From contig CP015605.1 in NCBI GenBank assembly GCA_002284895.1, positions 806,001 through 870,000 of the forward strand: DNA of 64,000 nt, given 5' to 3'. The DNA comes from Actinobacteria bacterium IMCC19121 (GTDB lineage Bacteria; Actinomycetota; Actinomycetes; Nanopelagicales; Nanopelagicaceae). The notes under the pieces are model-generated. The model ran no database searches, had not been told where the DNA came from, and saw nothing but the letters and a program-made list of their open reading frames with translations. Numbering within the stretch: the stretch's first letter is position 1; every line of letters begins with the position of its first letter. The translations under genes were made by a program, and so were the position numbers. Below are positions 15,929 to 37,622 of the stretch, piece after piece.

Positions 15929-16741
15929 TTACAACGGATAGGCAAGACCAATATCAGGCTCAACTAACTTCCACTTGAGCGCAACACGCTTAACCCACTT
16001 AGGCGCACTTCCTCTATCTATGGCCAACAACATTGCAGCTAAGCCCACAAAGATTGCAAAATTAAATAGGGGAGAAGTTAAGCCTTCCCACAGCGATGGT
16101 TCCCACTCATTATCTTTTGGATTGGGTGGAACGTATTTATCAAAGACAATGCTCCAGTCAATGAGAGCATGGAAGATGACTCCCACCCAAATACTTCGTG
16201 TGAGAATCATTAGGGCGCATATAAAGATGCCAAAGCCAAAAGTATCCATCACATGCCAATAGGCAAGCCATGGATCCCAATCACTGGCCCAATAGCGGTT
16301 TAAGTGCATCAGACCAAAGCCTAAGGAAGAGAAGAAAATAGCTCTCTTCCTACCAAATCTATAGAGTGAACCAAAGACAAAGGCGCGTGAGAATATCTCT
16401 TCGCTATAGCCAATAGAGAGTAAAAAGATTATGCCCATCACAGTTTCTTGCGTGCTCATGCGCACGTTATCTGAACTAGATATCTCTCCCACAATAAAGA
16501 TAGAAGCAATAAAGAGTGCAATGAGAGATTTAAAGCTAAATCGAGGTAATCTGAAATAAGCCAAGGACTGCAAACCTAAAAAGTATGTGGCTAGATAAAA
16601 CAAAAGCCCTGCCACAACATTGCCAAAGGTGGAGTTGGCATAAGGGATATCTTCAAACCAGCTCGTGGGTTGGAGCCTTCCTGCCACAAGGGTTAAGACA
16701 GATAGGGCAATCAGGGTGATGCCCAGCCGTAGGTTTCTCAT
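15929..16741 (-). CDS. CPBP-family intramembrane metalloprotease, DNA-damage promoter
   Basis: A 270-residue polytopic membrane protein. Motifs of the CAAX-protease/bacteriocin-processing family are present: EExxxR (GYSEEIFSRAF, Glu114-Glu115 and Arg119 from the chosen start), FxxxH (FGLMH, His146) and HxxxD (HALID, His191). Members cleave within the membrane or protect against bacteriocins. The start at 16741 is set by a PafBC-type promoter whose TACTGT box ends 7 nt upstream, giving a leaderless message. The same palindrome drives the divergent gene at 16802, so both are predicted to be induced by DNA damage. Confidence 0.85.
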   Translation of the reverse strand: MRNLRLGITLIALSVLTLVAGRLQPTSWFEDIPYANSTFGNVVAGLLFYLATYFLGLQSLAYFRLPRFSFKSLIALFIASIFIVGEISSSDNVRMSTQETVMGIIFLLSIGYSEEIFSRAFVFGSLYRFGRKRAIFFSSLGFGLMHLNRYWASDWDPWLAYWHVMDTFGFGIFICALMILTRSIWVGVIFHALIDWSIVFDKYVPPNPKDNEWEPSLWEGLTSPLFNFAIFVGLAAMLLAIDRGSAPKWVKRVALKWKLVEPDIGLAYPL

Positions 16742-16748
16742 AGGGATC

Positions 16749-16771
16749 ACAGTAGGCAGCCCCACTGACAA
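16749..16771 (-). promoter_or_regulatory. PafBC-type (RecA-NDp) promoter of the CPBP gene
   Basis: On the minus strand the sequence reads TTGTCAGTG, 8 bases, then TACTGT. This fits the mycobacterial RecA-independent DNA-damage promoter tTGTCRgtg-N8-TAnnnT, known to be activated by PafBC. It shares the palindrome CTGACAATTTGTCAG (16765-16779) with the plus-strand promoter. Confidence 0.8.
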
Positions 16772-16772
16772 T

Positions 16773-16795
16773 TTGTCAGAGGCGCCTTCTAACCT
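16773..16795 (+). promoter_or_regulatory. PafBC-type promoter of the 16802 gene
   Basis: The plus strand reads TTGTCAGAG, 8 bases, then TAACCT (16790-16795). It is followed 6 nt later by the ATG at 16802, giving a leaderless start. Confidence 0.75.
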
Positions 16796-16801
16796 AGAGC
16801 C

Positions 16802-17194
16802 ATGTTAGAAACCCTCTTTTTTGCCACCCTGATCTTCCTCTTCCTTAACCGCTCAAAGAAGAAGCGCCGTCCGCGCTCGCTAGATGGTGAACTCAAAGAG
16901 TTACTAGCAACTGATCAAGAGAACAAAGGCATAGCGTTAGATATAAAGAACTATCTCCTATGGATCATTGAGTGCAATAACAATGATGAAGAAAAGTTCA
17001 ATGATCTTCAATTAACAAAAGCCCAAGAGATCATTGATAGAGCAGGCCCAGCCGCCTTCTACTGGATGAGTGATATCGCAGCACAGCTAGCTCTGCTCTC
17101 AGCCGCCCAGATCAATGGCATACCAACGAATGTGAACGTGGAGCTAGGGGCCAGTGCAACGGCGGGGGATGTGGTGAGGGTGGTTGTTAAGTGA
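16802..17194 (+). CDS. Membrane-anchored protein of unknown function, DNA-damage promoter
   Basis: A 130-residue protein with one N-terminal membrane segment (TLFFATLIFLFLNRS), then a strongly basic stretch (KKKRRPR) that should face the cytoplasm, then a soluble helical domain. The domain carries IDRAGPAAFYWMSDIAAQLA and ends in a short beta-like tail. No family is recognised. It is divergent from the CPBP protease and both use the same palindromic PafBC box, so the two products may act together at the membrane after DNA damage. Confidence 0.6.
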   Translation: MLETLFFATLIFLFLNRSKKKRRPRSLDGELKELLATDQENKGIALDIKNYLLWIIECNNNDEEKFNDLQLTKAQEIIDRAGPAAFYWMSDIAAQLALLSAAQINGIPTNVNVELGASATAGDVVRVVVK

Positions 17195-17267
17195 TTAAGG
17201 GGTTACATTCTTGATTGTAGGCGCGTACATTTAAGGCCAGTGCATAAGTAGATTTCAGGTAAAAATC

Positions 17268-17924
17268 ATGAATGAGATGAAGTCGACAAGCAGCAGGTTC
17301 TATTGCTCTTGCAAAATGCAGATAGGCACTTGCAAAAATCTAGATCATCCAAAGAAAATGGAATGGATAGTCGGACCATTCAAAGAGGGATGGGCTTTGG
17401 GTAAATATGGAGCTGGTGTATTGAAATATGGGAAATTGGTGCAGGACTATAAATATAACGCTGAACATGTGAGCTCTAAAGATGCAAGTAAACTGAGAAG
17501 TGATGTAATGAAGGAAGTTATGCGTTCTGTAAACTACTTTATAGATGGTTACTTCCCTCCAAGAATGCGAGAATTTGACTCCGTTCTACCACTACCAAGT
17601 TCTCGTCAACAGGAACACACATTACAAAATGAAATTGCATCAAATTTGGCAGGTAAAGGTCTACTTAATCTGCAAACAACACTCAAGGTCGGCGAGGGTA
17701 CACACATAGCATCCAAGAATCTTGATGGCTTCACGGCACGGACTGAGAATAGAAGGAAGGACTATTTGATTGGTGATGCTTCTCTTTTGGCTCAGTCCAA
17801 AGGTATTCTTTTTATTGATGACGTCTATGACACCGGGGCGACCATGCGCGTGTGTGCTGAACTAATCAACGCAATACGGCCAGAATTGCCTAAGTATTTT
17901 CTTACAGTTGCGTACATAAAATAG
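17268..17924 (+). CDS. Phosphoribosyltransferase-like protein with N-terminal Cys/His cluster
   Basis: A 218-residue protein. The PRPP-binding loop of type I phosphoribosyltransferases is clear at residues 180-192 (ILFIDDVYDTGAT). The N-terminus has Cys13, Cys15, Cys22 and His27 (YCSCKMQIGTCKNLDH), which could bind zinc. The layout recalls ComF (zinc finger plus PRTase), but the N-terminal motif differs and length is similar to ComF by chance or descent. It is 23 bp from a SLOG-fold gene, so the two form a pair. The stretch is more A/T-rich than the neighbours by eye, suggesting an acquired cassette. The nucleotide it acts on or senses is unknown. Confidence 0.72.
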   Translation: MNEMKSTSSRFYCSCKMQIGTCKNLDHPKKMEWIVGPFKEGWALGKYGAGVLKYGKLVQDYKYNAEHVSSKDASKLRSDVMKEVMRSVNYFIDGYFPPRMREFDSVLPLPSSRQQEHTLQNEIASNLAGKGLLNLQTTLKVGEGTHIASKNLDGFTARTENRRKDYLIGDASLLAQSKGILFIDDVYDTGATMRVCAELINAIRPELPKYFLTVAYIK

Positions 17925-17947
17925 GTTTATTGGTAAATTCTGCAATT

Positions 17948-18508
17948 ATGAAGATCGTCCTAGGAGGTTCTCGACACCTCGAATACATTCCGAACGAAGT
18001 TGCCGAGAAATTAGATGGTTGGATAGCTAATGATGTTCAATTTCTGGTTGGTGATGCCCCTGGATCCGATCGTGCTTTTCAGTCTTTCTTACAGAAGCGA
18101 AAATACCCAAATGTTCTTGTTCTAAGTAGCGCAGGCATGATCCGTAATAATTTGGGTAATTGGCCAACAGAACTAGTCGAGTCAGGCTTAAAAAGTAAGA
18201 GTCACTCAGTTCATGCATTTAAAGACAGAAAAATGACAGCGGTATCAGATGTTGGATTGATGATTTGGGATTGCGAGAGTGCAGGAACGTTATCAAATGT
18301 GATCGACTTATTGAAACAGGGTAAGGAATGTGCTTTATGGATTGCTCCGGATTCCGAGCTTTGTAATTTTGATAACTATGATTCATTGAATAGGTGGCTT
18401 GTTAAGTACCCAGATGTTAAATTGGAAGCCGAAAGTCGTTTGGCAAAATTTGCTAAGCGTGAAGCAAAGAAGCAAATAGATAACAACCAAGAGACTTTGT
18501 TCAATTAG
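17948..18508 (+). CDS. SLOG-superfamily (DUF2493/YspA-like) nucleotide-binding protein
   Basis: A 186-residue Rossmann-like protein. The hallmark of the SLOG/DprA/LOG superfamily is visible: GGSR at residues 6-9 in the first loop, GDAPGSD at 35-41, and DKx-type block DRKMTAVSDVGLMIWD followed by SAGT. The tail is basic and helical (AKFAKREAKKQ). SLOG domains sense or process nucleotides and nucleic acids; DprA is the best-known member. The ATG at 17948 puts the first strand at the N-terminus and is preferred to TTG 17930. It is paired with the upstream PRTase. A two-gene nucleotide-signal or defence function is a hypothesis. Confidence 0.75.
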   Translation: MKIVLGGSRHLEYIPNEVAEKLDGWIANDVQFLVGDAPGSDRAFQSFLQKRKYPNVLVLSSAGMIRNNLGNWPTELVESGLKSKSHSVHAFKDRKMTAVSDVGLMIWDCESAGTLSNVIDLLKQGKECALWIAPDSELCNFDNYDSLNRWLVKYPDVKLEAESRLAKFAKREAKKQIDNNQETLFN

Positions 18509-18619
18509 TTATTGCCCAAAATACTCAATGTATTTCCCATCCCAGTCGTAGCTGTCGAAGAAATCCTGCACACCTTCGCTAATGCGCTCCATTAGTGCTT
18601 GTCTTTCTTCCTCTGTCAT
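18509..18619 (-). CDS. 36-residue acidic ORF coupled to the zinc-ribbon gene
   Basis: A short ORF whose ATG (18617-18619) overlaps the TGA of the upstream zinc-ribbon gene as ATGA. The product is acidic and aromatic (MTEEERQALMERISEGV, then FFDSYDWDGKYIEYFG). It has no recognised family. The overlap and the absence of a gap before the convergent SLOG gene support it as a real coding sequence. Confidence 0.5.
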   Translation of the reverse strand: MTEEERQALMERISEGVQDFFDSYDWDGKYIEYFGQ

Positions 18620-18831
18620 AGATCTTCCATTGAATCTCTGTGCCCACGCCAACCACACTCTCTACATGCAATATCTGGCTGCATAGGTTCAACTAAACAA
18701 CCACCCACTGCATACTTCTTAAAGTCGAAATCAGAACCAGGCATGCCATAAAGGATGCGTTGTAGTACTGCCTTTTGCAGGCACTGAGGACATATGAGCG
18801 TGCGAAGTGCGGGGCGGCGTTTGGTTGTCAT
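18616..18831 (-). CDS. Zinc-ribbon protein, DNA-damage promoter
   Basis: A 71-residue protein with two Cys pairs, CPQC (residues 14-17) and CREC (near 56-59), with YGMPGSDF and GGCLVEP between them. This is the pattern of a small family of predicted zinc ribbons of unknown function. A PafBC-type promoter (TTGTCAGTC-N8-TATCTT) ends 6 nt before the ATG, giving a leaderless message. It is translationally coupled to the 36-residue ORF downstream. Confidence 0.65.
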   Translation of the reverse strand: MTTKRRPALRTLICPQCLQKAVLQRILYGMPGSDFDFKKYAVGGCLVEPMQPDIACRECGWRGHRDSMEDL

Positions 18832-18837
18832 GGTGTG

Positions 18838-18860
18838 AAGATATGGGTGGGGACTGACAA
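18838..18860 (-). promoter_or_regulatory. PafBC-type promoter of the zinc-ribbon gene
   Basis: On the minus strand: TTGTCAGTC, 8 bases, TATCTT, then 6 nt to the ATG at 18831. It is back-to-back with the plus-strand box at 18873. Confidence 0.72.
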
Positions 18861-18872
18861 ATGAGGCTAGAT

Positions 18873-18895
18873 TTGTCAGCGCTCGGCAATACTCT
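18873..18895 (+). promoter_or_regulatory. PafBC-type promoter of the 18914 gene
   Basis: TTGTCAGCG, 8 bases, TACTCT (18890-18895). Transcription should begin near 18902, leaving a short leader with AGGAGG before the ATG. Confidence 0.72.
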
Positions 18896-18913
18896 GGTAT
18901 CAGGAGGTAGGAG

Positions 18914-19216
18914 ATGGCACAGGTCCCAATTATTGGCTCTGAAGGTAAGCCAATTCTTTATGCCTACCTTGAGGGAGCAGATCTTAAATTTGAGTTTGAG
19001 TACTACGGTACTGGCGAGAACGGAATGGATTACGAATTCATTCACACCGTTGCACCTGAAAATCAGATGTTGATTGCAAAAAAGTTTGGGCTTGATCCTA
19101 TGGCGGAAGTTCTAGATACAGTCCAGCAGATATCCAAGGCTGGCCACGGAGAAGAGTTAAAGCAAGCTCTCACTGACAAGGCAATTCCTAATCATCTCTG
19201 GACTTGGTTGAGTTGA
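18914..19216 (+). CDS. 100-residue protein of unknown function, DNA-damage promoter
   Basis: An acidic soluble protein (ADLKFEFEYYGTGENGMDYE in the first half, then helical SKAGHGEELKQALTDKAIP). No family is recognised. It has a consensus ribosome site (AGGAGGTAGGAG) and a PafBC-type promoter 18 bp upstream of the start. Divergent from the zinc-ribbon gene, it belongs to the same predicted damage-response set. Two further boxes of the same type follow its stop codon. Confidence 0.6.
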   Translation: MAQVPIIGSEGKPILYAYLEGADLKFEFEYYGTGENGMDYEFIHTVAPENQMLIAKKFGLDPMAEVLDTVQQISKAGHGEELKQALTDKAIPNHLWTWLS

Positions 19217-19223
19217 ATTAAAT

Positions 19224-19246
19224 TTGTCAGTGGGCTTTGGTAAAAT
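19224..19246 (+). promoter_or_regulatory. PafBC-type promoter, first of a tandem pair
   Basis: TTGTCAGTG, 8 bases, TAAAAT (19241-19246). This is a full consensus match just after the 18914 gene, reading toward the VWA leader. Confidence 0.75.
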
Positions 19247-19304
19247 AGGGTTATAAAGAAAACAGGAAGTGAAGTTAAGAACGAGATTCGATCTAAACTT
19301 TAAT

Positions 19305-19327
19305 TTGTCAGAGTGGTGTGGTATAAT
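19305..19327 (+). promoter_or_regulatory. PafBC-type promoter, second of a tandem pair
   Basis: TTGTCAGAG, 8 bases, TATAAT (19322-19327), exactly 81 bp downstream of the first box. Transcription should start near 19334, before the leader ORF. Confidence 0.78.
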
Positions 19328-19357
19328 TGCTTCATCACAGAAACTACGGGGGTAAAA

Positions 19358-19408
19358 ATGTTAAACACACGCATCTCCCCGCTCGCAACACGCTCAATCA
19401 ACATCTAG
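19358..19408 (+). CDS. Possible 16-residue leader peptide
   Basis: An ATG just after a G-rich site (CGGGGG) opens a 16-codon frame (MLNTRISPLATRSINI) ending at TAG 19406. It lies in the 5' leader of the VWA gene, before the hairpin array. It may be a regulatory upstream ORF, but chance occurrence cannot be excluded. Confidence 0.35.
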   Translation: MLNTRISPLATRSINI

Positions 19409-19420
19409 CCCGCTACACGC

Positions 19421-19572
19421 AAGGCCGCCAAACCAGGCCTTAAAGCTCGAAGGACCCCACCGCCCTCGTTAGGAATCCTAACCACGGCGCACCTACATGC
19501 CTCTGTACGAGAATCGTACGTTTTTGGCTCTCACCGTTCGGTTAACCGAACACCTGTCGGGCTAACCCGACA
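19421..19572 (+). repeat. Array of five hairpins in the VWA leader
   Basis: Consecutive inverted repeats are: AAGGCC/GGCCTT (19421-19441), GTTAGGAATCCTAAC (19468-19482), GTACGAGAATCGTAC (19505-19519, followed by TTTTT), GTTCGGTTAACCGAAC (19536-19551) and TGTCGGGCTAACCCGACA (19555-19572). The stretch is C-rich and has no supported long ORF. The third hairpin with its T-run looks like an attenuator terminator. The last hairpin ends 39 bp before the VWA start codon. Confidence 0.75.
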
Positions 19573-19610
19573 ACTCTTTTACTTTTCAACCCTTAAATAA
19601 GGAGATTCAA

Positions 19611-19856
19611 ATGAATGTTAAAGCCCTACTGGATGTAGACATGGTTGCACTTGAGGCAACTGACAAAGTCACACTGATGCTCGATCTCACTGCCCCTGCA
19701 AACCCAAAGCATGTAAGCCGTCCTGGCCAGGCAGTTCAAGTTGTTCTTGATCGCTCAGGTTCTATGGATGGTGCACCACTTGAAGCAGCTAAAGGCTCAT
19801 TACTAAAGCTCATTGATCTTTCCTGTGGGATATCTCTGCATTGCCTTTGCACCTAA
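19611..19856 (+). pseudogene. 5' fragment of a VWA-domain protein gene, fused at 19818
   Basis: The first 69 codons encode the start of a von Willebrand factor A domain protein: a lead-in strand (KVTLMLDLTAP) and the MIDAS motif DRSGS at residues 47-51. After LLKLID the frame runs into foreign sequence and stops 12 codons later (TAA 19854-19856). From 19819 the DNA matches the interior of an MFS transporter gene in another frame. Intact relatives have several hundred residues. A good ribosome site (AAGGAG) and the complex leader suggest the gene was once functional. Deletion or an assembly join are both possible. Confidence 0.75.
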
Positions 19857-20766
19857 TGCCTATTACTTATTTATAGGCGCAGTCTTTTTTGTCTTGGGGT
19901 ATGCCTTTATTGATAACCCAATAACAATGATTACGCAAGAACTAGAGAGAACGGCAGATCGTAAGTTTCTCTCTGGCTTTCACGCCTTCTGGTGCATGGG
20001 CACCTTAGTTGCCGCCTTCTTTGGCTCTTTCTTAATTGGGCATGTTCCATATCCAATCCACTTAAGTGGATTAGCTCTACTTAGCTTTAGTGTTCTAGTT
20101 ATTGCTGGGCAAAGGCTTGAGGCTAAAGAGGTGGACGGGGAGAAGAAAGAAAAGATTGATTTTCCCTGGTTTGGCAAAAACACAGGAATTATCTGGGCCA
20201 TTGGCTTTGCGATGCTCTGTGCTAATAGCGCTGAGTTTGGTGCAACTGATTGGTCGGCCCTGTTTTTGCGAGATGTTCTAGGTATTACAGGACAGTTCTA
20301 TGTGGGCGCATTTATGGCATTTGAGATAGGGATGATTACTTCTAGGTTATTAGGAGATAAATACATTCACACCTATGGTCCAGAGAAAGTAATAAAGGTT
20401 TGTGGATTTGTTGGATCTGTAATGTGGTTGGCAACGATGGTGCTGGGCGTGGAGATGAGTCATGGCAATAAGGTGCTGGCTTATTTTGTTATCTTGCTCG
20501 GCTACCTTGTTGCAGGTTTAGGTGTGGGACCTATGTATCCATCACTGATCACCATTGTGGGGCGCTTGAGTGGAGTAGAGACATCGGTGGCCTTTGCTAG
20601 ATGTCTTCTCATCGCACTGCTGGGCTTTGCCGTGGTGCCAGGCCTAATCGGACATATCTCTGATCTTTCATCTCTTAACATCGCAATGCTTTTGCCAATT
20701 TCTTTGTTGGCAGTTGGTGGTTATATGTCACGGGTTGCACGCAGTTCACGAGTAAAGGCGGAGTAA
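19819..20766 (+). CDS. MFS transporter, 5'-truncated
   Basis: About 315 codons of a major facilitator family protein, with roughly nine or ten membrane helices (for example YYLFIGAVFFVLGYAFIDNP, VAAFFGSFLIGHVPYP, IGMITSRLLGDKYIH, VAGLGVGPMYPSLITIVG). The N-terminal helix region of about 85-90 residues is missing, because the frame merges with the VWA fragment upstream. The first in-frame start lies inside that fragment and is not a natural start. The gene is either broken or the contig is misjoined here. DoxX follows with zero spacing, so these were originally one operon. The substrate is unknown. Confidence 0.75.
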   Translation, partial: FPVGYLCIAFAPNAYYLFIGAVFFVLGYAFIDNPITMITQELERTADRKFLSGFHAFWCMGTLVAAFFGSFLIGHVPYPIHLSGLALLSFSVLVIAGQRLEAKEVDGEKKEKIDFPWFGKNTGIIWAIGFAMLCANSAEFGATDWSALFLRDVLGITGQFYVGAFMAFEIGMITSRLLGDKYIHTYGPEKVIKVCGFVGSVMWLATMVLGVEMSHGNKVLAYFVILLGYLVAGLGVGPMYPSLITIVGRLSGVETSVAFARCLLIALLGFAVVPGLIGHISDLSSLNIAMLLPISLLAVGGYMSRVARSSRVKAE

Positions 20767-21195
20767 ATGAAATTGGCACAGCGCATCCCACAAGCAGTAC
20801 TAGGTGTGGCTCTTGCCTATGCAGGTATTACGCACTTAACAACCAAGCGAGAAGAGTTTCAGGCACAAGTGCCAACGATCTTGAAATCAATAGCAGATTT
20901 TGTTGTTCTGGCCTCTGGGGTGGTTGAGATTGTTTTAGGTTTATCACTGATCTTTTTGTGGCAATATCGCGTGCAAGTGGGCTGGGTAGTAGCAGCTTTC
21001 TTTGTGGCAGTCTTTCCAGGCAATATCTCTCAATATCTCAACCACGTTGATGCTTTTGGTTTAGATAGCGATAGAGCACGCTTTATTAGATTGTTCTTTC
21101 AACCATTACTTGTTATCTGGGCGTTGTGGTCAACGGGGGCGTGGAAAGAGCGCTCCAAGGTATTTAAAGGTGCAGGAGATGGTGGGCTCAGGTAG
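20767..21195 (+). CDS. DoxX-like membrane protein
   Basis: A 142-residue protein with four membrane helices ([74 protein letters not shown]). The first two carry the DoxX pattern of a helix followed by GVVEIVLG. DoxX relatives support membrane redox or thiol stress functions. The ATG begins directly after the MFS stop codon. It overlaps the start of the cytochrome b5 gene. Confidence 0.75.
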
Positions 21196-22144
21196 CGTTT
21201 TCTCTGTGAGAAAGCTTCTTGTAGCGCTTTTAGTTTTTGTTCTTTTCGGCAGCGGTGCTGCCCAGGCACATCAACCAGTTGAACTTTTAAAAACCGACAC
21301 AACTGCTGCCAAGGGACCACTATTAGTTGATGGCACAGTCTCCTTTGCTATCAGAGCATCTTTTACAAAAGCGGGAGAGAAAAAAGGTTTTCGCGCCCAA
21401 CTACAAGAGGGCGATGCACTTAATTTTCAGTACTTGATCATGGATAAGAAGCCAGAGAACGCTCTTAAGATGACTCAGCTTCCTACACTTGTTGTTACAG
21501 GTCCTGGTGGCTTTAAGACAACAATGAAGCTCAATGAGCGCACAAAGTTCTTAGAGACTTTCTCTCAAACAATGTATTTATATTTAGGTCGCCATAGCTC
21601 AGTTGCTAAGAGTGGTGTTTATAGTTTTCTTCTTACTTCGCGTGGTAAGGCAAGTATTACTTTAGGTGTGGGAGATAAAGAAATTCCTGGTGAAGTACTA
21701 CGTGGTGCTGCGCCAACACCAACCCCAACTCCCACACCAACCCCAACTCCCACACCAACCCCAACTCCCACACCAACACCAACACCAACGCCCACACCAA
21801 CTCCCACACCAACTCCCACACCAACTCCCACACCAACTCCCACACCAACCCCAACTCCCACACCAACACCAACACCAACGCCCACACCAACTCCAACTCC
21901 AACAATTGCCGGATACACAATGGCTCAAGTTAAAGCCAACAACAGCGCAAAGAGCTGTTGGGCTGTTGTTGATGATTATGTCTATGACTTAACTACGTGG
22001 ATTAACTCTCACCCTGGTGGTCCTGGCGTGATTGTTTCTTTGTGTGGCACAGATGCAACCACTTCATTTAAATCACAGCATCAAAACCAAGCTAAGCCTG
22101 CTGTGCGATTAGATTCTTATAAGTTAGGTCCGCTTAAGAAGTAG
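21179..22144 (+). CDS. Secreted protein with Pro-Thr stalk and C-terminal cytochrome b5-like domain
   Basis: A protein of about 321 residues. It has a signal peptide ([19 protein letters not shown]), an unknown beta-rich N-domain of about 150 residues, an uninterrupted (PT)n stalk of about 60 residues, and a C-terminal cytochrome b5 fold. The heme motif HPGG (His near residue 278) and the second axial His (FKSQH, near 301) are both present, so heme binding is likely. Start choice is uncertain: ATG 21179 overlaps doxX, while GTG 21207 begins right at the signal peptide. Exported b5 domains suggest an extracellular or surface electron carrier or heme sensor. The function is inference. Confidence 0.8.
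21711..21903 (+). repeat. Pro-Thr coding tandem repeat
   Basis: About 190 bp made of variants of CCAACNCC/CCCACA hexamers, with higher-order repetition of 24-66 bp blocks. It encodes the (PT)n stalk. Such tracts can change length by slippage and give artefactual antisense frames. Confidence 0.95.
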
Positions 22145-23617
22145 TTAAATCAAACCCTTTTGCAGACCCTCTAAGACTTCTTGTGCTCTTTCCTTTAACT
22201 CAGGAAGATCACTCAATCTCTTGAGACCAAATACTTGTTGACTCATGCGGTGGTTTTTAGCAAAAGCCTCTTTGTGGCGATCAAGAAAATCCCAATACAA
22301 AGTTGTAAAAGGACAAGCGGTATCACCAACGCGCAGCTTGGGGTTGTATGCACATCCTTTGCAGTAGTTAGACATGCGTGAGATGTAGGCACCGCCGGCC
22401 GCATATGGCTTAGTCATCATCTGCCCACCATCTGCGTGAACACCCATACCAATAACGTTGGGAACCATGACCCATTCAGATGCATCGATAAATACTTCGC
22501 GCATCCAATCAAGAAATTCTTGTGGGTTGGTGCCAGTAATGAGAGCTAGATTTGAGAGCAGCATTAAGCGGGGGATGTGGTGGACCCAGGCGCGTTCGTT
22601 AATGTCGCTAACAGTTTGCTTCATGCAGTTCATCTGGGTTTTGCTGGGATCACTGAATAGAGGCAAGAGCGGGCCTGTGGCCGCTAGTTGATTATTGTTT
22701 CGATAATCAGGGCCCAGAAACCAATACATGCCGTTGACGTATTCACGCCAACCAATGACTTGTCTGATAAATCCTTCTGCAGATTCAATAGGAATAGATC
22801 CTGTTTTAAAGGCTTTCATGGCAGCGTGGATAACCTCTGTTGGGTGGAGTAGTCCATTATTTAAATACGGAGAGAGCAGTGAGTGATGCAGCGCCCAGTT
22901 ATCAACTGTCATGGCATCTTCTAGAGGGCCAAAGTCGGCAAAGTGGTTATCGATAAAGTTATTTAACTGCGCCAGTGCGCCTTTGCGGGTGGTGGCCCAG
23001 GTGGTTGTGGGGGTGTGGCCCAATTCTTTGGCTACTTGCTTATCAATCTCATCCCTTGTGTGTTCTAAATATTTGGGGCCTTCATACTTTTTAGGTGGTG
23101 GCAATCTATTTTCTTTATCAAAATTCCACGCTCCACCTACAGGATCTTTGCCCTCCATCAAGATGTTGAGGCGTGTGCGCTGCTTTCTATAGAAGTTCTC
23201 CATCAGATAGCTCTTTTGTTCTGATGCCCATTGATTAAACAGGGGACGTGGGGTTAAAAAGAAGTCGTTGTCAATGAATGTGACTCCGTGTGTTTTTAGA
23301 TCATTAAATGCTCTAAAAGAGGAAGGTTCTGCGCAGGTGATGGGAAGCTTTTTATACTTCTTATTTATTTCATCCAACCCATCAATAGTTGTTGGGGCTT
23401 TAAAGTATTCAACGGTGAAGCCTTCATCTTCTAGGGATTGTGCAAAGTGGCGGGCTGAGGAGATGAGAAAGAACAGGCGCTCCTTGTGCCAGGCTCGCCC
23501 TGTGGTCATACGCGCACTTTCAACAAAGGCGATGACATCGTGCGCAGGGTCGGCATCTTTGAGTGCGCCGTAGTTGCGGTGCAGGTGATCAAAGGGGATA
23601 TAGATGATTCGATTCAT
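22145..23617 (-). CDS. phrB: FeS-type cryptochrome/photolyase (PhrB-like, FeS-BCP)
   Basis: A 490-residue protein of the photolyase-related FeS-BCP class. The N-terminal antenna-type domain begins [17 protein letters not shown]. The FAD domain contains [17 protein letters not shown], and the C-terminal cysteine set (NYCKGCAYN and GDTACPFT, plus upstream Cys) can hold a 4Fe-4S cluster. Characterised members repair (6-4) photoproducts using light. The start at 23617 has an AGGAAC site. Its ATG overlaps the stop of the DUF2256 gene, the usual partner of this family. With TspO nearby it forms a light-related group. Confidence 0.93.
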
Positions 23618-23757
23618 TTGTTGTTCCTGCAACGATCACTGCAGTACTTAACCTCATCCCAGTTCTTAGCCCACTTCTTGCGCCATTCAAAAGGTAGGTG
23701 ACAGCGCAGGCAGGTTTTTGGCTCAAAGCCATTTTTAACTTTAGCGGCGCGGGACAT
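23614..23757 (-). CDS. DUF2256 protein (photolyase-associated zinc-finger-like)
   Basis: A 47-residue protein with paired Cys motifs: [16 protein letters not shown], then [12 protein letters not shown]. This is the DUF2256 pattern, known for its genomic association with cryptochromes and photolyases. The ATGA overlap with the photolyase start codon indicates coupling. Its role is unknown; a zinc-binding accessory protein is likely. Confidence 0.85.
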
Positions 23758-23799
23758 GGAGTTAATCGTAGGTGATTAAGTTTTTCTAACCCTGTAAGG

Positions 23800-24261
23800 C
23801 TAGTTAAGGCGGCTGTAGGTGTAACTCAGATTTGCCGCTATCGCTACCCAGATTTGGTAGGGAAGTAGTGCAACGCCTAAAGCGATAGATGTCCTAAAGG
23901 CAATTACTGTCATAGGAATCGTCAATACAACCGTTCCCACAAGTGCCATGACAGCAAAGCTTAAGTTGTGAGGGCGATAGAACTGATATGCCCATGTGAG
24001 AGCACATGCAACTGAGAGTGCGAAGAAAGTTAAGTAGATCAACGTTGTTGCAGTTGTAGCACGCTGGGCAATTGTTACGGCGGCAACACCTAAGACTATG
24101 AAGTTATAAGGCCAGATAATGCCAAAGATGGCAGGTGGTGGTTGCCAGGATGGTGCGTTCAATGTTCGATACCAGTTATCTCCTGTGTTTACCCACAGAC
24201 CCGAGCCAATGACATAGATAAAGACAATGGCGATACCGATCACGGCAAACAGGTTCTTCAT
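23800..24261 (-). CDS. tspO: TspO/MBR family protein
   Basis: A 153-residue membrane protein with five helices and family motifs: WYRTLNAPSWQPPPAIFGIIW in the first loop and LPYQIWVAIAANLSYTY at the end. TspO proteins bind tetrapyrroles and act in light, oxygen or stress responses. TACGAT ends 6 nt upstream of the ATG, so the message is probably leaderless. The neighbouring photolyase supports a light-stress link. Confidence 0.9.
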   Translation of the reverse strand: MKNLFAVIGIAIVFIYVIGSGLWVNTGDNWYRTLNAPSWQPPPAIFGIIWPYNFIVLGVAAVTIAQRATTATTLIYLTFFALSVACALTWAYQFYRPHNLSFAVMALVGTVVLTIPMTVIAFRTSIALGVALLPYQIWVAIAANLSYTYSRLN

Positions 24262-36481: not shown

Positions 36482-37108
36482 TTAATTGATAGAGCGAAGC
36501 ACAGCTGTTACAACTCCCAGGATTTCGCAGTTATCGCCATTAATAGGCTCAAAAGCATCATTTGCTGGCAGTAGCCAGATGTGGCCATCTTTTTTAGAGA
36601 AGGTCTTTACGGTGGCTTCACCATCAATCATCGCTGCAACGATTTCACCTTTGTTGCAATCTTTTTGTGAACGGATCACTACATAGTCACCATCACAGAT
36701 AGCTGCATCAATCATTGATTCGCCCACTACTTTGAGCATAAATAACTCACCTTTTCCAACAAAGGACTCAGGCAAAGGAAATACTTCTTCTACTTCTTGC
36801 TCAGCTGTTATTGGTCCACCTGCTGCAATGCGACCAACGAGGGGAATCATCCGCGTCTTATCGACAGGTGCCCCGTTTACCTCAGGAGTTAGCTCTAACG
36901 CTCGGCCCTTGCTCTCATCGCGGCGGATGAAGCCTTTTTGCTCCAAGATCTCCAGCTGATACTTCACCGATGCTGTTGAGGTCAGGCCAACGGCCGCCCC
37001 GATCTCTCGCATAGTGGGGGCATAGCCATGCTCGGCCATGGCCGTTTCGATGACATTGAGGATTTCAGCCTGGCGGGTGGTTAAGCCCTGGGGGGTTTGT
37101 GTGCTCAT
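36482..37108 (-). CDS. lexA: LexA repressor
   Basis: A 208-residue SOS repressor. It has an N-terminal winged helix (TMREIGAAVGLTSTASVKYQ), the self-cleavage site Ala96-Gly97 (GRIAAGGP), catalytic Ser131 (GESMID) and Lys168 (ATVKTF). On RecA activation it cuts itself and releases SOS genes. ATG 37108 is the proper start by family length; the longer frame to 37369 is an artefact that crosses the promoter. A SOS box lies 32 bp upstream (37140-37155), so it is autoregulated. It is divergent from the LysM gene as in mycobacteria. Confidence 0.97.
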   Translation of the reverse strand: MSTQTPQGLTTRQAEILNVIETAMAEHGYAPTMREIGAAVGLTSTASVKYQLEILEQKGFIRRDESKGRALELTPEVNGAPVDKTRMIPLVGRIAAGGPITAEQEVEEVFPLPESFVGKGELFMLKVVGESMIDAAICDGDYVVIRSQKDCNKGEIVAAMIDGEATVKTFSKKDGHIWLLPANDAFEPINGDNCEILGVVTAVLRSIN

Positions 37109-37139
37109 GGATACAGGGTGACATAGATTTACGAAATAT

Positions 37140-37155
37140 TCAAACATATGTTCGA
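37140..37155. promoter_or_regulatory. LexA (SOS) box of lexA
   Basis: TCAAACATATGTTCGA matches the actinobacterial SOS box TCGAAC-N4-GTTCGA with one mismatch, in front of lexA. Confidence 0.85.
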
Positions 37156-37169
37156 ATTTAACTTGCCAT

Positions 37170-37192
37170 TTGTCAGTGGTGGGGTGTTTAAT
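37170..37192 (+). promoter_or_regulatory. PafBC-like promoter of the LysM gene (imperfect)
   Basis: TTGTCAGTG, 8 bases, then TTTAAT. The -35-like half is perfect; the -10 differs from TAnnnT at one position. It sits just upstream of the second SOS box. Confidence 0.55.
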
Positions 37193-37200
37193 TGTCCTAT

Positions 37201-37216
37201 TCGAACAGTTGTTCGA
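37201..37216. promoter_or_regulatory. LexA (SOS) box of the LysM gene
   Basis: TCGAACAGTTGTTCGA is an exact match to TCGAAC-N4-GTTCGA, placed at the predicted transcription start of the LysM gene. Confidence 0.92.
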
Positions 37217-37250
37217 ATACCTTCCCCAAGGTAGTTCGCAGGAGAAAACT

Positions 37251-37622
37251 ATGAGCACAGTGTCACTAGCTAGCAAAACAAGTGTTTTACAAGGCTTTTC
37301 TAGCCCTTTCACACAATCGATCAATCCGTCCGGCGCATCACTGACTCGTCGTGGTCGACTAGCTCGCACTTTGTTCGTAGCTTCCTTGAGCGTGGTCCTA
37401 GTGGCAGGTTTTGCTGCCCAATCAGGTGCCGGTGATCAAGTAGTAGCCCCAACCTCTTATGTGACCGTTGTGGTGCCAGGGGGAGAAACCCTCTGGTCTG
37501 TCGCCTCTGCATACTCGCGCGGGGATGTGCAGGCGATGGTTGAGGCGATCCGTGAGGCTAATAATTTGAAGGGCTATGACGTTCAAGCAGGGCAAAAGCT
37601 GCGTATTCCTTTTGAGGGCTAG
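37251..37622 (+). CDS. SOS-induced membrane LysM protein (Rv2719c/ChiZ-like cell-division suppressor)
   Basis: A 123-residue protein with a short cytoplasmic N-terminus, one membrane helix (TLFVASLSVVLVAGFAA) and a C-terminal LysM domain (VVVPGGETLWSVASAYSRGD, NNLKGYDVQAGQKLRIPF) outside. The position divergent from lexA and the architecture match mycobacterial Rv2719c, a damage-induced inhibitor of septation. A ribosome site (AGGAGA) sets the ATG at 37251. It has both a perfect SOS box and a near-consensus PafBC promoter. Confidence 0.85.
   Translation: MSTVSLASKTSVLQGFSSPFTQSINPSGASLTRRGRLARTLFVASLSVVLVAGFAAQSGAGDQVVAPTSYVTVVVPGGETLWSVASAYSRGDVQAMVEAIREANNLKGYDVQAGQKLRIPFEG

Follow-up and report, generated by a model that had tools for sequence, protein, structure and literature searches.

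Predicted PafBC promoters lead accessory genes of a hypervariable lexA-side region in a freshwater actinobacterium

Results

Six promoter-like sites in one accessory cluster

The stretch analyzed here (hereafter the window) comprises 64,000 nucleotides: positions 806001-870000 of the single-contig, 1,506,415-base genome (∼46% G+C) of Actinobacteria bacterium IMCC19121, a member of the Nanopelagicaceae and, to judge from its size, base composition and named relatives (Candidatus Planktophila, uncultured freshwater actinobacteria), probably of the acI type. Within it a small cluster of accessory genes carries six copies of an element, TTGTCAG-N10-TAnnnT, resembling the promoters that PafBC activates in mycobacteria, a RecA-independent class termed RecA-NDp. 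A pattern scan of the window for exact matches returned 16749 (−), 16773 (+), 18838 (−), 18873 (+), 19224 (+) and 19305 (+), all within 2.6 kb; these are the six sites listed in a preliminary description of the sequence, and every coordinate and strand was reproduced.

Sites A to D each adjoin a gene. Site A (16749..16771, − strand) faces the gene for a CPBP/Rce1-like intramembrane protease of 270 aa (15929..16741, −; Pfam PF02517, E 1.6e-15), whose ATG (16741-16739) begins 7 nt past the −10. Head to head with it, site B (16773..16795, +) precedes the gene for a 130-aa protein (16802..17194, +; ATG at 16802), and site C (18838..18860, −) that for a 71-aa zinc-ribbon protein (18616..18831, −; ATG at 18831). 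At these three sites the start codon falls 6-7 nt past the last T of TAnnnT, and leaderless transcripts are therefore predicted. Site D (18873..18895, +) differs in that 18 nt of leader, including a Shine-Dalgarno sequence, precede the ATG (18914) of the gene for a 100-aa protein (18914..19216, +). Sites E (19224..19246, +) and F (19305..19327, +) stand in tandem and lead into the leader of a truncated VWA gene, site F as its putative promoter and site E upstream. Of the driven genes named in the preliminary description, the CPBP protease, the membrane protein (the 130-aa protein), the zinc ribbon and the 100-residue protein stand; what had been taken for a VWA gene proved to be a stump of 81 codons.

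Exact matches are rare. The whole genome contains eight, six of which are those of the cluster, and the reversed pattern has none; the other two lie upstream of recA and of a DUF6504/mutasome-type gene. For the window, a first-order Markov model gave a mean of 0.13 exact matches (maximum 1 in 60 replicates) against the 6 observed, which bears out the enrichment suspected earlier, and a union bound on finding 6 of the 8 genome sites inside 2.6 kb is ∼2e-12. Matches with one mismatch are at background genome-wide (70 vs 69 for the reversed control), so that a lone site of this kind means little. There are five such matches elsewhere in the window (15280, 26971, 37170, 52859 and 53846), of which the preliminary description had recorded 37170 as the only one.

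The regulator pair and the sites at recA and DUF6504

In mycobacteria, single-stranded DNA arising from damage or replication stress activates a heterodimer of PafB and PafC, for which neither RecA nor LexA is needed; the PafBC-dependent promoters were reportedly described by Gamulin in 2004 and by Muller in 2018. The genome of IMCC19121 has both genes side by side, as the preliminary description would lead one to expect: two adjacent genes for WYL-domain proteins match the solved PafB chain (5e-43) and the solved PafC chain (4e-23). The helix-turn-helix segment of PafC is well conserved, with LWMCGLPGY identical to the mycobacterial chain. No other WYL protein of regulator size is present in the genome; a third WYL match is a larger protein.

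The DUF6504 family, we presume, neighbours imu/dnaE2 mutasome genes. The recA site has an SOS box, TCGAACAGATGTTCG, directly 3′ of the −10. At recA and DUF6504 loci, including those of relatives, the SOS box (TCGAAC-N4-GTTCG) begins right at the end of the PafBC −10; LexA would in consequence occupy the PafBC start site at these loci. The PafBC motif of M. tuberculosis, TGTC(G/A)G-N10-TA-N3-T, has the same spacing as the window sites (PMC8151990), and the mycobacterial promoters have been reviewed (PMC8223512).

Conservation and geometry of the element

The element recurs at homologues of the driven genes. A protein search found CPBP homologues in 7 of 61 genomes of the genus, and a site is present at the start codon in all seven (three have ATGTC.., one of these with two mismatches). 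Among 30 loci with homologues of the 130-aa protein, 29 have a site with at most two mismatches and 26 with at most one; the reversed control at one mismatch gives 0. Upstream of two homologues of the 100-aa protein there is an exact site at the same distance as in the window, 18 nt, and a third homologue follows a short PafBC-led gene, from which it would be served by operon. One of the first two comes from a record titled as a Bifidobacterium breve metagenome-assembled genome; its gene and promoter are acI-like and the record is probably mislabelled. Zinc ribbons with the same promoter occur in seven other genomes, and 11 of the 14 VWA loci for which upstream sequence was available have a site there with at most one mismatch.

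Across 201 genomes of the family the pattern followed by N5-8-ATG gave 149 matches, a total counted by hand in which some ATGs belong to SOS boxes (TCGAACAnATG; recA and DUF6504 loci), vs 4 for the reversed pattern. With the SOS-box cases removed, the start codon lies exactly 6 nt past the −10 in 90 of 131 distinct sites from fetched loci. Motif positions 8-9, which were not used in the search, are T in 74% and G in 61% of these sites, extending the core to TTGTCAGTG; as the set was partly fetched by motif, it describes the shape of the motif and not its frequency. Throughout the set the element has its −10 at a fixed distance and is aimed at a gene.

Because the site is conserved at homologous genes, and because unselected positions extend the core, the identification of the six sites as genuine PafBC (RecA-NDp) promoters is well supported. 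The class assignment of the preliminary description is upheld by the same conservation, by the rarity of the motif, by the presence of pafB and pafC and by the sites at recA and the DUF6504 gene.

A hypervariable region beside lexA

If the recA and DUF6504 sites are set aside, most exact sites in single-contig genomes of the genus fall downstream of lexA, at a distance of 5-31 kb. In the nine genomes with complete lists of exact sites, 16 of the 20 accessory sites are found no more than 32 kb downstream of lexA, against a random mean of 0.45 and a maximum of 5 in 20,000 trials; the 32-kb limit was fixed with the data already in view and the genomes are relatives of one another, for which reason little weight should be put on the exact probability. 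Without the genome of the window the count is 10 of 14, and each of the nine has at least one accessory exact site in the lexA-downstream region. The genes present there vary strongly from genome to genome, while lexA-LysM-nrdR-nrdJ is conserved.

The cluster of the window belongs to this genus-wide hotspot, which the preliminary description did not mention. In the window lexA, the anchor of the hotspot, occupies 36482..37369 (−; PF01726 at 36899-37090, E 6e-24). The one-mismatch site at 37170..37192 (+) lies between lexA and a divergent LysM (YneA-like) gene, together with an SOS box at 37201-37215. Four other genomes have a similar site and SOS box in this intergenic region, which makes the 37170 site credible.

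Two further features of the variable region may be recorded. A photolyase-related protein (DPRP) and TspO are encoded at 22145-24261 and are found also in two other genomes. At 21110-22144 a long Thr-Pro repeat precedes a cytochrome b5 domain; in one of those two genomes (G051) the homologue stands behind a PafBC-like leaderless site (955352).

Genes behind the promoter in relatives

Targets within the family include recA, recR, DUF3263, CarD, YraN, exonuclease and trypsin-like genes (YraN, recR, CarD and DUF3263 were named by eye from sequence). Defence-type genes are also found directly behind the promoter. In a Druantia system DruF (2e-120) and the divergent C5 methyltransferase each have their own site; further cases are a DpdE/DrmD-like helicase (DpdE, 8e-138), type IIG restriction-modification enzymes (1e-158 and 2e-165), an Mrr-type restriction enzyme, a HEPN protein and a SocA/Panacea protein.

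A small Cys-rich protein (MIIDCxxCxMRxIACxDCVV) is seen repeatedly under leaderless PafBC promoters (loci L062, L094-L096, L112 and L130-L144); the copy at L130, when tested, had no Pfam family.

Proteins of the cluster

The zinc-ribbon protein shows the pattern CPxC...YGMP...GGC...CxxCGW in alignment, and no phage relative of it was found. The 100-aa protein has a confident structural model (predicted local distance difference test score, pLDDT, 90), with no fold match in PDB or viral structures, no trustworthy sequence relative in PDB, no Pfam or NCBIfam family and no phage relative. In G051 the two are fused: one gene behind a PafBC site codes for a zinc ribbon (46% identical to that of the window) joined to a domain like the 100-aa protein (E 7e-7). 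In the window the counterparts are separate, divergent genes, and a PafBC site precedes each. This fusion is good evidence that the two proteins, the 100-aa one as partner domain of the zinc ribbon, act together.

The 130-aa protein has an N-terminal hydrophobic helix and a helical domain in a model of modest confidence (pLDDT 75), and profile searches returned no known family. Two genes of the cluster have no PafBC site of their own. The first (17268..17924, +) encodes a phosphoribosyltransferase-like protein with PADLOC matches to PsyrT (7.5e-9) and ShosT (4.6e-6) and a weak Pribosyltran match; it is the one PsyrT/ShosT-like gene of the window. The second (17930..18508, +) encodes a 192-aa protein without a match in Pfam, NCBIfam or PADLOC, judged SLOG/DprA-like by eye; gene order and a sequence motif indicate that it is probably the partner of the phosphoribosyltransferase. 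Rfam gave no match in 16000-20000.

The VWA stump and its leader

The VWA stump (19611..19856, +; 81 codons) loses homology to its relatives, which are ∼445 aa long, near codon 70, and is fused out of frame to a fragment of an MFS-like transporter; the Pfam VWA domain was found on a homologue in another genome. The break, at 19825-19860, marks either a deletion or a misassembly.

The leader contains an upstream open reading frame (uORF) of 16 codons (MLNTRISPLATRSINI; 19358..19408, +), with a short open reading frame at the same place in relatives. At its stop codon begins an element, TAGCCCGCTAC-N4-AAGGCCGCCAAACCAGGCCTTA (19406..19442, +), that would form a small hairpin and was found only in VWA leaders, in 8 genomes. 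Across this leader and those at L202-L209 the uORF has 16-23 codons, and its stop codon opens the conserved TAGCCCGCTAC...AGGCCGCCAANCCAGGCC, where a small hairpin is likewise predicted. The uORF and hairpin could possibly form an attenuator. We do not claim a structured RNA: the hairpin was judged from alignment and a single compensatory change (A-T to G-C, in G123) was seen.

Discussion

The picture proposed is of a small accessory set under a shared, presumably damage-responsive activator. If the mycobacterial model carries over, single-stranded DNA from damage or replication stress would activate the PafB-PafC heterodimer, which would enable housekeeping RNA polymerase to initiate at TTGTCAGtg-N8-TAnnnT in the absence of RecA or LexA. 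The promoters would then drive the CPBP protease, the 130-aa membrane protein, the zinc ribbon, its partner the 100-aa protein and the broken VWA gene, mostly as leaderless mRNAs. These genes sit in the hypervariable lexA-downstream region, which the genus repeatedly fills with genes behind PafBC sites, many of which belong to restriction-modification or other types of phage defence. Taken as a whole, an account in which genuine PafBC promoters drive accessory genes in the hypervariable region beside lexA is, on the sequence evidence, highly probable. Induction of the island by DNA damage would follow from established PafBC biology, and we infer that the sites are activated by PafBC in this organism and that the genes may have a part in surviving damage or phage infection; a defence role for the island is plausible.

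Several observations weigh against this account. Homologues of the 100-aa protein at three loci, and a VWA homologue in one genome, have no direct site. Ordinary genes (recR, carD, DUF3263 and yraN) stand behind the promoter, which is hence not specific to defence; the defence genes behind it are a list of individual cases; and PADLOC has no match for the four intact proteins encoded behind sites in the window.

The lack of PADLOC matches also favours the strongest alternative, in which the PafBC promoters are real and the genes form a general set for protection from UV and other damage, unrelated to phage, with hypervariable regions merely collecting both kinds. The core PafBC genes are repair genes, and the photolyase-related protein and TspO lie nearby. 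Yet elsewhere the promoter sits directly on defence genes, including both divergent genes of Druantia (DruF and the C5 methyltransferase). We give this alternative somewhat less than an even chance.

It is improbable that the sites are real but read by another regulator, be it a dimeric repressor bound to CTGACAA-T-TTGTCAG or another WYL protein. Sites A and B do make up an inverted repeat whose 7-nt arms match perfectly and are 1 nt apart; however, unpaired sites are the rule, the spacing of divergent pairs varies (1 and 12 nt in the window, and other values at L101-L103), and every site comes with a −10 at constant distance and an orientation towards a gene. Moreover, the same site occurs at recA, and PafB and PafC have no WYL competitor of their size in the genome. 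Local duplication of one promoter segment might account for six sites in 2.6 kb, but the six have different spacers and −10s, the genes behind them are of unrelated families, and in other genomes, where it stands alone, every family retains its site, so we rejected it as very unlikely. Chance, suggested by the background level of one-mismatch sites, can be put aside as having next to no probability given the excess of exact matches over expectation, their absence genome-wide from the reversed pattern and the conservation at homologues.

Returning to the account with PafBC promoters on accessory genes, a broader proposal may be made, although tentatively, since we think it rather doubtful as a whole: PafBC, a housekeeping factor activated by single-stranded DNA, may in these actinobacteria be a common alarm of infection or damage for exchangeable defence genes; incoming genes with a minimal leaderless PafBC promoter would be retained in the hotspot beside lexA, and the zinc-ribbon/100-aa pair would be an undescribed two-part module of defence or damage tolerance. 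PafBC is known mainly as an activator of repair genes in mycobacteria. Were its promoter routinely found on exchangeable defence genes, damage sensing and immunity would share one trans-acting switch in one of the most abundant groups of freshwater bacteria. In the literature searched, represented mainly by titles and the openings of abstracts, no paper ties PafBC promoters to phage-defence genes, and, according to PMC10693628, no WYL factor had been described as regulating phage defence in Actinobacteria. As cultured strains of Ca. Planktophila and their phages exist (PMC10202952), the latter statement is directly testable, if our proposal is true. The motif and its leaderless geometry also offer a simple route to damage-controlled accessory genes of unknown function.

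Comparison with known systems

The sites resemble mycobacterial RecA-NDp promoters in the core TGTC(A/G)G, the 10-nt gap and TAnnnT, in the occurrence of the element at recA together with an SOS box, and in the pafB-pafC pair in the genome. They differ in the packing of six into a single accessory cluster, most of them driving leaderless genes, and in their targets, many of which in this family belong to the accessory or defence class and not to core repair.

The phosphoribosyltransferase, a toxin homologue with a gene judged by eye to be SLOG-like directly after it, recalls PsyrTA and ShosTA; unlike the PafBC-led genes beside it, it lacks a site of its own, and the identity of the partner comes from inspection.

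WYL regulators of phage defence include BrxR and CapW (PMC9122589, PMC9122601, PMC9122588). Here too a WYL-domain protein is linked to defence genes; but the genes for BrxR and CapW accompany the system under their control, whereas PafBC, a housekeeping activator encoded on the chromosome, would act in trans.

The nearest precedent is the Rv1955 (HigB) toxin-antitoxin operon of M. tuberculosis, which has a RecA-NDp promoter and is expressed more highly with mitomycin C (PMC2897130). In both cases accessory genes lie under a promoter of this class: in M. tuberculosis a single operon, here a clustered and syntenically fixed set.

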